Shown here one piece after another: positions 16,389 through 24,062 of a DNA stretch of 48,579 nt. Source of the DNA: an uncultured Clostridia bacterium. Lineage in GTDB: Bacteria; Bacillota; Dehalobacteriia; UBA4068. Within the stretch, counting starts at the first letter, position 1; each line of letters begins with the position of its first letter. The notes below the pieces were generated by a model. It was not told the origin of the DNA, ran no database searches, and was given only the letters and a program-made list of their open reading frames with translations. The stretch spans positions 1 to 48,579 of the forward strand of contig CALYAP010000024.1 in NCBI GenBank assembly GCA_944393575.1. The letters run 5' to 3'. Made by a program: the position numbers and the translations under genes.

Positions 16389-18068
16389 ATGAATCAACCA
16401 TCAGATAAAATCAATATCATTTATGATAATAACCAAACTATACAGACTATCAAAGGCACTACATTGAATGATATCTTAGCACTGATCCCCCAGCGCAATT
16501 ATGCTCCGGTAGGAGCTATTGTCAATAATGAGCTTCAGGAGCTTGATTATCCGCTTTACACTGATAGCACAGTCACCTGGGTTGATATCAGCACCAGTAC
16601 CGGGTGGCTGATCTACCGCCGCAGTCTGACTTTCTTGCTATTACTGGCTGTACATGAATGCTTTCCCGATCATCACCTGTGGGTTAGCCACAGCTTGGCA
16701 GAAGGGCTTTTCTGCTGGGTGGAAGATGAACAGAAGAACCGTCTCTCTGCAACTGAGATAGCTGTTCTCGAGAAAAAGATGAACGAATATGTAGCAGCAG
16801 ATATGCCGATTCAACGAGTTACCGTAGCCAAGGAAGATGCGGTATCCTTCTTCAAAAATGAAGGGAAGGACAATAAAGCCAGCCTACTGATGCGGAGGAC
16901 TCAGCAATATCTTAGTCTATATAAGGCCCATAACTTCTCTGATTATCTTTTTGGGCGAATGGCCACCCATGCCGGCATGCTTAAAGATTTTCGGCTGATC
17001 CCTTTTGAAGACGGCTTTGTACTGTGCCTGCCCTGCCGCGAATATCTGGGCATCAGAAAAACAGTGGAGCTGGAACCGCGCAAGTTACAAGCATGCTTAA
17101 GAGATTACCAGGAATGGACCAGTCTGCTGCACATCAAGACCGTTAGTGATCTTAATGCCATCGTCGATCAGGGACGTAAGGATTTCAGCGAGTTGGTACT
17201 GATCTGTGAAACACTCCAGGAACGAATACTGCATAATATTACCGACCAGATAGAACGCCACTTTCCCGAGGTACGCCTCATTCTCATGGCAGGTCCTTCT
17301 AGCTCTGGCAAGACGACAACTGCTCATCGGCTCTGTATCCAATTGCGCTCGGTAGGTATCCGGCCGGTAATGATCTCTATGGATGATTATTTTCTAGATA
17401 TAGGGGTAACACCGCTTAATGAACGGGGCAATCCAGACTATGAAGGCCTCGGAGCAATGGATCTAGAGCTATTCCACCAAAATATGGACGATCTACTGGC
17501 TGGCAAATCAGCCAGCATCCCCCTTTATGATTTTAAAAATGGCAAAAGTATCCCTGGCCACCGAAACATCAAACTGGAAGACGACCAAATCTTGATAGTA
17601 GAAGGTATTCATGCTATTAATGAAGTTGTCAGTGCCAATATCGCTAAAAAGAATAAACGGAAAATCTTCATCTCCGCTCTAACCCAAATCAATCTTGATG
17701 AAAATACTCCTTTCTTTACCTCTGATAACCGGCTGATCCGTCGTATTGTCAGAGACGCCAGCTCCAGGGGGTTAAGCCCGATAACTACCCTCAACCACTG
17801 GGATGAAGTAAGGCGGGGAGAACATTGCAATATCTTCCCCTATCAGGAAGAGGTGGATTTCTTTGTCAATTCGGCGCTTCTCTATGAGCTGCCGGTGCTG
17901 CGACCGCTGATTGAGGATCAACTGGCGGCAATCGGGCCAGAGGAGCAATGTTATTTGGAGGCTAAACGGATATTGCAGCTAATCCGCTATTTTAGTCCTG
18001 CTGACTATGACTTGGTACCACGTAATTCAGTGCTTCAGGAATTCATCGGCCATAGCATTTTTTCCTAA
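16389..18068 (+). CDS. uridine-kinase-like nucleoside kinase with ThrRS-like N-terminus
   Basis: A 559-aa cytoplasmic enzyme. Residues 1-70 look like a TGS domain, about 75-280 like the second additional domain of threonyl-tRNA synthetase, and about 295-490 are a P-loop uridine-kinase/phosphoribulokinase domain with Walker A AGPSSSGKTT (residues 301-310), the DDYF substrate motif and VEGIHAI. Proteins of this three-part plan and length are common in Bacillota and usually annotated as nucleoside or uridine kinase; the physiological substrate is not settled. A weak AAAGGCGG precedes the start. It stands alone, upstream of the CNNM gene unit. The N-terminal likeness to ThrRS is not linked to the thrS gene further on. 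Confidence 0.85.
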   Translation: MNQPSDKINIIYDNNQTIQTIKGTTLNDILALIPQRNYAPVGAIVNNELQELDYPLYTDSTVTWVDISTSTGWLIYRRSLTFLLLLAVHECFPDHHLWVSHSLAEGLFCWVEDEQKNRLSATEIAVLEKKMNEYVAADMPIQRVTVAKEDAVSFFKNEGKDNKASLLMRRTQQYLSLYKAHNFSDYLFGRMATHAGMLKDFRLIPFEDGFVLCLPCREYLGIRKTVELEPRKLQACLRDYQEWTSLLHIKTVSDLNAIVDQGRKDFSELVLICETLQERILHNITDQIERHFPEVRLILMAGPSSSGKTTTAHRLCIQLRSVGIRPVMISMDDYFLDIGVTPLNERGNPDYEGLGAMDLELFHQNMDDLLAGKSASIPLYDFKNGKSIPGHRNIKLEDDQILIVEGIHAINEVVSANIAKKNKRKIFISALTQINLDENTPFFTSDNRLIRRIVRDASSRGLSPITTLNHWDEVRRGEHCNIFPYQEEVDFFVNSALLYELPVLRPLIEDQLAAIGPEEQCYLEAKRILQLIRYFSPADYDLVPRNSVLQEFIGHSIFS

Positions 18069-18104: not shown

Positions 18105-18133
18105 TTGACAGCAGCAGTGCTTTCTGATAAACT
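18105..18133 (+). promoter_or_regulatory. promoter of the CNNM transporter leader
   Basis: TTGACA (18105-18110), a 17-bp spacer and TAAACT (18128-18133) with an extended TG two bases before the -10. Transcription should start near 18140, giving a leader of about 185 bases. Confidence 0.75.
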
Positions 18134-18170
18134 ATATATTAATCATTTAAGAAAGGGTTCTTACAGCAAG

Positions 18171-18245
18171 ATGGAAGACGCCGACCCGAGCGGTAATCGA
18201 CGAATAAACTATAGACAAATTTTTGGGGACATGGCCATCCGGTGA
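18171..18245 (+). CDS. candidate leader peptide of the CNNM transporter gene
   Basis: A 24-codon reading frame lies wholly inside the leader. It begins MEDADPSGNRR, an acidic/Pro N-terminus followed by Arg, and ends FGDMAIR. Its last codons form the left arm of the terminator and its stop lies in the hairpin loop, so a ribosome reaching the end would block the terminator. The ribosome site is weak (AAAGGG, 13 bases before the ATG). The Salmonella MgtL leader also opens with an acidic/Pro stretch followed by Arg, and such stretches destabilise the ribosome at low Mg2+. Coding is not proven; conservation of the peptide would be needed. Confidence 0.5.
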   Translation: MEDADPSGNRRINYRQIFGDMAIR

Positions 18246-18267
18246 GGCGGTTTGGCATGTCCTTTTT
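18225..18267 (+). terminator. leader terminator before the CNNM gene
   Basis: GGACATG (18227-18233) pairs with CATGTCC (18256-18262), extended by CC/GG after a bulge, and is followed by TTTTT. It lies between promoter and gene, so it must be regulated to allow expression. Confidence 0.75.
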
Positions 18268-18324
18268 GTGTTGGAAAGAAACCTTGATTCAACAATGCAC
18301 TATCAATTAAAGGAGTGAATAGTC

Positions 18325-19698
18325 TTGACAGACGGACCCATAGGTCTTCAATTATTAATCGTATTTCTCTTAATTTTAATCAATGCTTTTTTTGCAGCGT
18401 CAGAAATTGCAGTTATTTCTCTCAATGAAAACAAAGTCAGGCGCGAAGCAGAAGAAGGCAATAAAAAGGCCAAAAAACTGCTTAAACTGGTGGATAATCC
18501 AGGAGCATTTCTTTCCACCATTCAGATCGCCATCACTTTAGCTGGATTCTTAGCCTCCGCTTTTGCAGCTGACAGTTTCTCGGAACGGCTGGTCAATTGG
18601 TTGGTCTATGACCAAGGTTTTAATGCGCTCAGCCCATCTACCCTTAATACCATCTGCATCATCGTGATCACTTTAATCCTTTCTTATTTCACTTTGGTGT
18701 TGGGCGAATTAGTACCGAAAAGACTGGCAATGAACAACCCAGATAAAGTGGCTTCATTTGTAGCAGGCGTTATTCTCGGGACCGGCAAAATCTTTCGTCC
18801 TATTGTCTGGTTGCTTGATAAATCGACCAATGGTATGCTACGTTTGCTGGGGATCGACCCTAATAAAGAACCGGAAGAGGTCTCTGAAGAAGAGATCCGT
18901 ATGATGGTTGATATCGGCGAAGAAAAAGGTGCGATTGAGCCTACGGAAAAGATGTTTATTGAAAATATTTTTGAGTTCAATAACATCACTGCAGAGGATG
19001 TGATGATCCACCGCACTGATATGAAAGTAGTCTGGCTCGATGACAGCAGGGAAGAAATCATGCAGCTGATTACTGAGAGTGGACTTTCCCGTTTTCCGGT
19101 CTGTGGCGATGATATTGATGATGTTATCGGCCTCTTGCGCACCCGTGAATACTTGCTTAATGCTCAAAGTGAACAGCCCAAACCCCTGCGCGAGCTATTG
19201 GCACCGGTCTATTTCGTGCCGGAATCCGTCCCCGCAGATAAGCTCTTTCGCGATATGCAGCAAAAAAAGACCCATATGGCAGTAGTTGTGGACGAATACG
19301 GCGGCACCAGCGGATTAGTGACCCTGGAAGACCTGCTGGAAGAAATCGTCGGCAATATCTATGATGAATTTGATCCACTTGATACACAGGAGATCATCAA
19401 ACTCGAGCCTAATTTGTGGCGGATGCGCGGTAGTGTCGAGATTGAGACTCTCCAAAATGAATTGAATATCGAGCTTCCTGAGGACGATGAGGAGCATGAT
19501 TTCCATACCTTGGGCGGACTGGTCTTTAGCCAGCTTTCAGAGATACCGCCAGATGGTGCTCAACCAGAACTTGATGCCTATGGACTGCACCTGAAAGTAG
19601 AAGTTTTTGCGGAAAGGCGAGTGGAATGGGTATTAGTCAGCAAAATAGAAACCGCGGAAGAAGACGAGCAGGAATCAGCCCCAGAGAAAAACGACTAA
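18325..19698 (+). CDS. CNNM/CorC-HlyC family transporter, putative Mg2+ efflux
   Basis: A 457-aa membrane protein. Residues 1-190 are the DUF21/CNNM domain with about four helices and the conserved SEIAVISLNENKVR and GELVPKR motifs; 210-335 are a CBS pair (VMIHRTDMKVVWLD, VVVDEYGGTSGLVTLEDLLEEIVG); 350-440 are the CorC/HlyC domain. CNNM proteins move Mg2+; the B. subtilis member MpfA exports it and is controlled by its CBS domains. The start is a TTG at 18325, nine bases after AAAGGAG; no ATG fits. It has its own promoter, a candidate leader peptide and an internal terminator. The annotation hemolysin often used for the family is misleading. Confidence 0.9.
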   Translation: MTDGPIGLQLLIVFLLILINAFFAASEIAVISLNENKVRREAEEGNKKAKKLLKLVDNPGAFLSTIQIAITLAGFLASAFAADSFSERLVNWLVYDQGFNALSPSTLNTICIIVITLILSYFTLVLGELVPKRLAMNNPDKVASFVAGVILGTGKIFRPIVWLLDKSTNGMLRLLGIDPNKEPEEVSEEEIRMMVDIGEEKGAIEPTEKMFIENIFEFNNITAEDVMIHRTDMKVVWLDDSREEIMQLITESGLSRFPVCGDDIDDVIGLLRTREYLLNAQSEQPKPLRELLAPVYFVPESVPADKLFRDMQQKKTHMAVVVDEYGGTSGLVTLEDLLEEIVGNIYDEFDPLDTQEIIKLEPNLWRMRGSVEIETLQNELNIELPEDDEEHDFHTLGGLVFSQLSEIPPDGAQPELDAYGLHLKVEVFAERRVEWVLVSKIETAEEDEQESAPEKND

Positions 19699-22154: not shown

Positions 22155-24062
22155 TTAGTCCTTCACCTTATCGGCAATTTCCTGTTTAAGACGAGGAATG
22201 AGATCATCGATATTCATTGCACCCAAATCTCCCTCGCCACGTTTACGCACGGCCACAGTAGCTGATTCCATCTCCTTATCACCGATGACCAGCATATAAG
22301 GGATCTTCTCAGTCTGAGCAGCGCGGATCTTATAGCCGATCTTCTCATTACGGTCGTCAACCTCTACCCGGATGCCGGCATCGCTGAGTTTGGCAGCGAT
22401 TTCCTTAGCATAATCGAGCTGACGATCAGTGATCGTGAGGATTTTAGCCTGAACAGGAGCAAGCCATAGCGGGAAAGCTCCGGCAAAATGCTCGATCAGG
22501 ATACCAATGAAACGCTCGATGCTGCCAAACAGCACACGATGAATCATGACCGGGCGGTGCGGCTGATTATCTGGGCCGATATAATTCAGATCGAACTTCT
22601 CCGGCATCTGGAAATCCAGCTGAATGGTACCGCATTGCCAGGTACGGCCCAGGCTATCTTCCAGGTGGAAGTCTAGCTTAGGACCATAGAAAGCACCATC
22701 GCCTTCATTGATGACATAGTCCATGCCCATCTCATCCATAGCATCAGCCAGCGCTTTTTCTGCGATATCCCAAACTTCCGGATCGCCCATTGAATCTTCG
22801 GGACGGGTAGATAGCTCCACATGATACGGGAACCCGAAAAGACTATAAAAACTGTCGATCATTTTAGCCACGCCGATGATCTCATCTTTGATCTGGTCTG
22901 GAGTCATGAAAATATGTGCATCGTCCTGGGTAAAGCAGCGTACCCGCATCAAACCATGCAATACGCCGGAAAGTTCATGACGGTGAACGATGCCCAGTTC
23001 GCCTAAGCGTAAAGGCAGCTCCTTATAACTATGGGGCTTTGATTTATAAACCAACACGCCTCCTGGACAGTTCATCGGTTTAATGGCATAGTCCTCATCA
23101 TCTATTTTGGTGAAATACATATTGTTCTTATAATGATCCCAGTGGCCGGAGCGTTCCCACAGCGCCCGGTTAAGGATAATCGGGGTACGGATCTCCTGAT
23201 AACCATGTTTAGCATGCTCTTCACGCCAGAATTTCTCCAACTCATTACGCAGAACCATTCCTTTGGGCAAGAAGAAGGGGAAGCCAGGCCCCTCTTCCAT
23301 CAGCATGAACAGCTCCAATTCCTGTCCCAGCTTGCGGTGGTCGCGGCGTTTAGCTTCCTCCAAACGGAAAAGATAGGCATCGAGCGCCTCACGATTCGGA
23401 TAAGAGGTAGCGTAGATGCGCTGCAGCATCTTATTATTGCTATCGCCATGCCAATAGGCTCCGGCAACACTCATCAGCTTGATGGCTTTGACCATGCCTG
23501 TGCTAGGCAAATGCGGGCCCGCGCATAGATCGGTAAAATCTCCCTGCTTATAGAGCGAGATCACGGCGTCCTCGGGCAAGCGTTCGATCAGGTCGACTTT
23601 ATAAATTTCATCTTTGCCTCCAAAATAGGCCAGAGCTTCTTCTCTGCTGACTTCACTACGCTCAAATTTATAATTGGCCTTGACAATCTTTTTCATCTCT
23701 TTTTCGATTGCCGCCATATCTTCATCAGTAAAAACGTGCTCGCTATCAACATCATAATAAAAGCCGTCTTTGATAGCCGGGCCAATACCGAATTTGGTAT
23801 CAGGGAAAAGATGCTGGATCGCCTGGGCCATGATATGGGCGCTGCTATGCCAGAAAGCATGGGAGCCATCAGGGTCATCAAAAGTGAGAAATTCCAATTT
23901 ATCGCCATCCTGCGGCTGATAGAACATTTCTTTGGCTACACCATTCACCTTGACCATACAAAAAGTTTTGGCAGCATCTTTATCCACTTCTTTAGCTATC
24001 GCTATGGCTGGTAGACCATCCTCAAATGATTTAATACCATAATTAACAATATCCAGATTCAT
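22155..24062 (-). CDS. thrS: threonyl-tRNA synthetase
   Basis: A 635-aa class II synthetase that charges tRNA-Thr. Residues 1-62 are the TGS domain, about 65-220 the editing domain with HSSAHIMAQA and CAGPHLP, about 240-530 the catalytic core (motif 2 VHRHELSGVLHGLMRVRCFTQ region, zinc ligands MNCPGG and MIHR), and about 535-635 the anticodon-binding domain. All editing and zinc residues are present. GGAGG stands seven bases before the ATG. A T-box leader precedes it. Its end is followed by a strong terminator, so it is monocistronic. Confidence 0.97.
   Translation of the reverse strand: MNLDIVNYGIKSFEDGLPAIAIAKEVDKDAAKTFCMVKVNGVAKEMFYQPQDGDKLEFLTFDDPDGSHAFWHSSAHIMAQAIQHLFPDTKFGIGPAIKDGFYYDVDSEHVFTDEDMAAIEKEMKKIVKANYKFERSEVSREEALAYFGGKDEIYKVDLIERLPEDAVISLYKQGDFTDLCAGPHLPSTGMVKAIKLMSVAGAYWHGDSNNKMLQRIYATSYPNREALDAYLFRLEEAKRRDHRKLGQELELFMLMEEGPGFPFFLPKGMVLRNELEKFWREEHAKHGYQEIRTPIILNRALWERSGHWDHYKNNMYFTKIDDEDYAIKPMNCPGGVLVYKSKPHSYKELPLRLGELGIVHRHELSGVLHGLMRVRCFTQDDAHIFMTPDQIKDEIIGVAKMIDSFYSLFGFPYHVELSTRPEDSMGDPEVWDIAEKALADAMDEMGMDYVINEGDGAFYGPKLDFHLEDSLGRTWQCGTIQLDFQMPEKFDLNYIGPDNQPHRPVMIHRVLFGSIERFIGILIEHFAGAFPLWLAPVQAKILTITDRQLDYAKEIAAKLSDAGIRVEVDDRNEKIGYKIRAAQTEKIPYMLVIGDKEMESATVAVRKRGEGDLGAMNIDDLIPRLKQEIADKVKD

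Follow-up and report, generated by a model that had tools for sequence, protein, structure and literature searches.

The leader described here lies in a 48,579-nucleotide stretch of DNA from an uncultured Clostridia bacterium, which is referred to below as the window. Upstream of the leader region there is a kinase-like gene ending at 18068, and downstream of it a CNNM/CorC-type transporter gene is located on the forward strand (18325-19698, 457 aa, TTG start). The leader, on the same strand, begins with a strong sigma-A-type promoter at 18105-18133, which consists of a -35 element TTGACA (18105-18110), a 17-nt spacer and a -10 element TAAACT (18128-18133) with an upstream TG (extended -10), and agrees with the consensus in 10 of 12 positions. 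It is followed by a Shine-Dalgarno (SD) sequence, GAAAGGG (18151-18157), situated about 13 nt 5' of the ATG at 18171, and by a leader ORF of 24 codons and a TGA stop (18171-18245). The encoded peptide, MEDADPSGNRRINYRQIFGDMAIR, starts with MEDADPSGNRR and carries acidic residues at positions 2, 3 and 5. An intrinsic terminator occupies 18226-18267 and comprises a hairpin (18226-18263), GGGACATGGCCATCCGG-TGAGG-CGGTTTGGCATGTCCT, of about -20 kcal/mol, and a T run (18263-18267). The left arm of this hairpin is the 3' end of the leader ORF, and the TGA stop is inside the loop. Both the SD sequence of the leader ORF and that of the CNNM gene, AAGGAGTGA (18310-18318), were read directly. Direct reading also bore out an earlier note on this DNA, in which a promoter, a 24-codon frame and a terminator with the end of that frame as its left arm had been described.

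The SD spacing of about 13 nt is long; spacings of 12-15 nt also occur in relatives of this leader, and SD sequences of the AAAGG or AGAGG type stand at a comparable distance from the start codon at five related loci (L033, L034, L004, L005 and L007). A simple terminator scan of the window did not report the hairpin 18226-18263, and folding of the complete window leader showed no unusual stability (z -0.18), single-sequence folding statistics being uninformative here. Since the window leader alone was unremarkable in the folding test, the leaders of orthologues were compared.

The product of the gene 18325-19698 contains a CNNM transmembrane domain (PF01595, E 6e-55), a CBS pair (PF00571) and a CorC_HlyC domain (PF03471), i.e., the domain set of CNNM/CorB transporters, and matches the solved structure 7m1t, 'Hemolysin, contains CBS domains', with E 5e-45. 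Members of the CNNM/CorC family have been linked to Mg2+ export and to the tolerance of high Mg2+, namely MpfA (PMC6711546) and CorC, MgpA and CorB (PMC12421838), and by analogy with such members as MpfA and CorB the gene probably encodes a Mg2+ exporter. Neither an M-box nor MgtE was found in the genome from which the window comes (97% complete), while the M-box controls from B. subtilis and L. lactis were detected.

CNNM genes were gathered from 61 relatives, from 398 genomes of the phylum and from three more sets of 61 genomes, these collections overlapping in part, and the DNA upstream of each gene was read in the correct orientation. Comparable leaders were found 5' of CNNM orthologues in about 44 genomes belonging to 16 families, as listed by the search tool; these counts are inflated by common ancestry within families, and the spread is still wide. 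The same layout recurs before the CNNM gene across much of the phylum, and promoters with at least 10 of 12 consensus positions stand 5' of 27 of 35 homologous leader ORFs, with the -10 element ending 20-59 nt before the start codon. A direct DNA similarity search with the leader retrieved only copies from the same genus (G002 and, in part, G001) and a marginal match in G008. The leader family is visible only at the level of peptide and architecture.

The distribution is not uniform. No leader was detected in Dehalobacterium formicoaceticum DMC (G037), a member of the same class as the window, or in the fairly close relatives G109 (64% identity), G015, G243 and G397. In Syntrophobotulus glycolicus FlGlyR (G396), the leader MDDNPGDRRSCMVLWCRLLKTSNRLKPFFYRRP precedes one of two close CNNM genes (locus L126, G396:C1:1467261-1468020), and none is present at the other (L110, CNNM gene at G396:C1:1663040-1664332), which provides a natural internal control. 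In a third species of the window's genus (L034, G001:C223), a shorter leader, MDDADPSGTKLNCN, stops about 8 nt short of the presumed left arm, and the contig ends there. The start of the CNNM gene in G012 (L005, reverse strand), TTGGAAGGGCATTAG, contains an in-frame stop after four codons as compared with TTGGACGGGCATTTAGG of G018; the apparent one-base deletion is due to misassembly or else marks a broken start.

For an unbiased count, an acidic short ORF was defined as an SD-led frame, 8-70 codons long, whose residues 2-10 include three or more D/E, and the close CNNM subfamily was delimited at about E < 1e-100 (56 leaders). Such ORFs were found in 34 of the 56 close CNNM leaders, the mean and maximum over 40 dinucleotide shuffles being 3.9 and 8, and in 17 of 208 other genes taken as controls from the window and 20 other stretches, with the window's own leader excluded. 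With a stricter threshold of at least four D/E, the figures were 16 of 56 vs. 2 of 209 controls. Distant CNNM paralogues were near background (4 of 32 vs. 1.5 expected). An acidic signal in the own N-terminus of leaderless CNNM proteins was also considered and rejected, as proteins with and without the leader did not differ (D/E in residues 2-9, mean 0.95 vs. 0.78, p=0.38); acidic CNNM N-termini may be a mere consequence of membrane topology.

The peptides themselves were compared in 44 distinct curated leaders, a set selected in part by acidity, so that the unbiased test is the above comparison of 34 of 56 with shuffles and controls. Besides MEDADPSGNRR of the window, the starts include MDEADPDHAG, MEDADSPEG, MNDDTEAGRSSS, MDDSPFPEQ, MEDPGDFD, MDDDIGDEGSSR, MEENAGDIRSS, MDDNPGDRRS and MDDIPGDIGSSS. 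Among residues 2-11, 35% are D/E, as compared with 4.8% in the remainder of the peptides (8% in control SD-led short ORFs); for K/R the figures are 5.7% and 16.6%, basic and hydrophobic residues coming after the acidic start, beyond residue 11. Both residues 2 and 3 are acidic in 33 of 44 leaders, and at least one of them in 43; counted separately over 35 leaders, an acidic residue stands at position 2 in 28 and at position 3 in 32. At these two positions D and E, with all four of their codons, replace each other, and in codons 2-11 of 12 close pairs 20 synonymous codon changes were found vs. 24 nonsynonymous ones, with 19% synonymous expected (p=7e-5). The comparison indicates that charge, not nucleotide or residue identity, is kept at the leader start. 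The leaders range from 17 to 64 aa, and from family to family neither this length nor the C-terminal sequence is kept, apart from what the terminator imposes. The MgtL-like start proposed in the earlier note, acidic/Pro and then Arg, has stood in its acidic part, the D/E pair at residues 2-3 being constant, and has not stood in its proline, which is not constant; a description as acidic with Pro/Gly/Ser fits the start better.

The same note had called for a comparison of orthologous CNNM leaders for a short ORF ending in the terminator. A hairpin was detected in 40 leaders, a set that includes G428 with a doubtful assignment (terminators were weak or undetected in G016, L121, G205, G316 and G428), and in 39 of them the ORF reaches the left arm or stops no more than 12 nt before it; shuffling of the DNA from codon 11 to the hairpin gives an expectation of 19.1. 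Of these 39 leaders, 16 have their stop in the left arm, 4 within the loop, 6 in the right arm, 10 past the hairpin and 3 just before it. In many members of the f27, f73 and f97 groups the left arm contains the stop codon, which accounts for a peptide end of ..RP or ..RL. Among G141, G275, G376, G420 and G462, which form another group, the frame passes through the whole hairpin (..GNF.LSLLLCVF..); at L101, L103, L113, L114, L120 and L191 the leader ORF runs through the entire terminator, including the U tract, and ends with ..GNF.LSLLLCVF.., the same DNA being both protein code and hairpin. The solutions vary, and their outcome is shared, in that on completing the peptide the ribosome sits on the terminator. 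In G042 (L012; CNNM match at 1501), the leader ORF passes the terminator and extends right up to the CNNM gene, and translational coupling may add to attenuation there or replace it.

Conserved RNA structure is confined to the terminator. The hairpin is conserved in three of four family groups by alifold; the f1 set is too divergent to align well, and its two closest members conserve the hairpin. The hairpin of the window is kept in its closest relative, with an alifold energy of -18.1 as against -1.7 after shuffling of the columns. In the four family groups no conserved structure was found 5' of the terminator (alifold energy about 0), and these groups have no conserved helix there that could serve as an antiterminator mutually exclusive with the terminator. 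Direct occlusion of the terminator by the ribosome would make such a helix unnecessary. The check suggested earlier, i.e., whether the ORF or the RNA structure is conserved, has come out in favour of the ORF, whose acidic start is kept across families, and the reading of the region as a leader-peptide attenuator gains support from conservation in 16 families. The proposed polarity follows from the anatomy: since the leader ORF overlaps the terminator, completed translation keeps the CNNM gene on.

Summarizing these data, we consider it probable that the leader is a translation-dependent transcription attenuator of the CNNM Mg2+ exporter gene, which would be on at ample Mg2+ through intrinsic ribosome destabilization (IRD). 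Transcription would start about 30 nt before the leader ORF. A ribosome translating the leader up to its stop would cover the left arm during the passage of RNA polymerase through the U tract, and transcription would extend into the CNNM gene; a ribosome aborting within the first ten codons would leave the left arm free, so that the terminator would form and the gene would be off. Two to five Asp/Glu residues together with Pro/Gly/Ser in these ten codons would destabilize the ribosome when Mg2+ is scarce. The sensor would be the ribosome itself, and the output, an exporter expressed when Mg2+ is ample, would have the opposite sign to MgtL/mgtA. We infer that ribosomes drop off on the leader, that they do so in response to Mg2+ and that the product exports this ion.

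The Mg2+-dependent abortion of translation is proposed because the conserved early charge is the signature of IRD. For MgtL it is established that translation aborts at low Mg2+ by IRD at an acidic/Pro N-terminus (described in PMC11282234, PMC11552253). In mgtQ, acidic residues lower translation of the ORF, which supports IRD (PMC8092293), and the N-terminus of E. coli CorC has an IRD sequence, expression above a Mg2+ threshold having been proposed (PMC12421838). The timing of the ribosome has also to be considered, as RNA polymerase of B. subtilis outruns the lead ribosome (runaway transcription, cited in PMC9226507). Unless there is a pause, the leader ribosome might therefore come too late. 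Ribosome-mediated attenuation does operate in B. subtilis, and NusG-dependent pausing takes part in it. No demonstrated case of IRD in Bacillota is known to us.

The main rival explanation, which we regard as unlikely, is that the same attenuator anatomy senses general translation capacity, i.e., ribosome inhibitors, ribosome number, the status of bL31 or of ABC-F proteins, or growth rate, and not Mg2+. The anatomy fixes only that completed translation keeps the gene on; the ABC-F protein EttA modulates MgtL translation (PMC11282234), and the leader ORF of B. subtilis vmlR senses translation inhibitors (PMC9226507). However, a general sensor need not track a Mg2+ transporter, whereas the leader was found with one CNNM subfamily, the distant paralogues and the 208 control genes showing lower rates. 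It is very improbable that the leader ORF encodes a small functional protein and that the terminator only tunes a bicistronic mRNA; its start is indeed conserved at the protein level, but its length and C-terminus vary among families in the way described above.

Hardly any weight can be given to a classical amino-acid attenuator responding to charged tRNA(Asp/Glu/Pro). A short ORF rich in a few residues does precede an intrinsic terminator, but D and E interchange, Pro comes and goes, and the exchange of D, E, P, G and S leaves no repeated pathway codons; in addition, the downstream CNNM gene is not biosynthetic, the four family groups do not conserve an antiterminator helix, and early stalling on an ORF that enters the terminator would switch the gene off, not on. 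Metal-ion transporter genes are often preceded by Mg2+ and Mn2+ riboswitches, but a metal-sensing riboswitch with an incidental open frame is just as poor a candidate here, because an Rfam covariance-model search of the leader gave no match at the gathering score and no convincing one at a relaxed threshold, no conserved structure lies upstream of the terminator, and the ORF shows synonymous bias and conservation at the amino-acid level.

The preferred reading, an attenuator that reports ample Mg2+ through completed translation of the leader, may be compared with several known systems. MgtL, the leader of mgtA in Salmonella and E. coli, resembles it in the acidic/Pro start of a short ORF before a Mg2+ transporter gene and, on the proposed mechanism, in that completed translation would report ample Mg2+. 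No sequence homology between the two is claimed. When MgtL is translated, an importer is repressed by way of Rho-dependent termination and RNA structures that switch, whereas translation of the CNNM leader, found in another phylum, would keep an intrinsic terminator from forming and turn on an exporter. The CNNM leader is not a member of the MgtL system, since it does not share its Rho-dependence, alternative folds and importer target.

The N-terminal IRD of CorC (YbeX) and the YoaL-MgpA leader of E. coli/Salmonella are similar in that they concern CorC-domain proteins implicated in Mg2+ resistance, for which a sensing at the level of translation, with higher expression at high Mg2+, has been proposed (PMC12421838). 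However, the IRD of CorC is within the protein itself and the YoaL leader acts on MgpA translation, whereas the CNNM leader is a separate ORF fused to an intrinsic terminator. In mgtQ, before mgtB of Salmonella, acidic residues 2 and 5 lower translation of the ORF and set the expression of a Mg2+ transporter (PMC8092293), but it works on translation of an importer and promotes it at low Mg2+. With an SD-led ORF between a promoter and an intrinsic terminator before the CNNM gene, the leader has the anatomy of the ribosome-mediated attenuators of Firmicutes (bmrCD, vmlR), in which the position of the ribosome on a leader ORF sets readthrough of an intrinsic terminator. Unlike vmlR, which uses stalling and antiterminator/anti-antiterminator helices, it has no conserved alternative helix, and the terminator arm itself is translated.

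In the open-access literature covered by our search, no published description of a leader peptide before CNNM/CorC/MpfA genes in Bacillota was found, and the regulation of mgpA and corC has been stated to remain unclear (PMC12421838). The sensing of Mg2+ excess and the induction of exporters in bacteria are poorly known. In our opinion, the balance tilts slightly towards a phylum-wide class of Bacillota leaders, in which Mg2+ sufficiency would be read through the stability of the translating ribosome, this ribosome would occlude an intrinsic terminator, and the Mg2+ exporter would be switched on; it would be a counterpart of MgtL that is on at high Mg2+, with a different termination mechanism and a probably independent evolution. 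If this is true, ribosome destabilization by acidic nascent chains serves as a Mg2+ sensor outside Enterobacteriaceae, with the opposite output. The approximately 44 natural leader sequences are a resource for reading the determinants of ribosome destabilization, and the reading proposed here can be tested in cultured organisms, for example, in Syntrophobotulus glycolicus.

Elsewhere in the window, on the reverse strand, a T-box leader (RF00230, 24129-24345) was recognized with 93.6 bits, the gathering score being 93, upstream of a threonyl-tRNA synthetase-like ORF (22155-24062, reverse strand).
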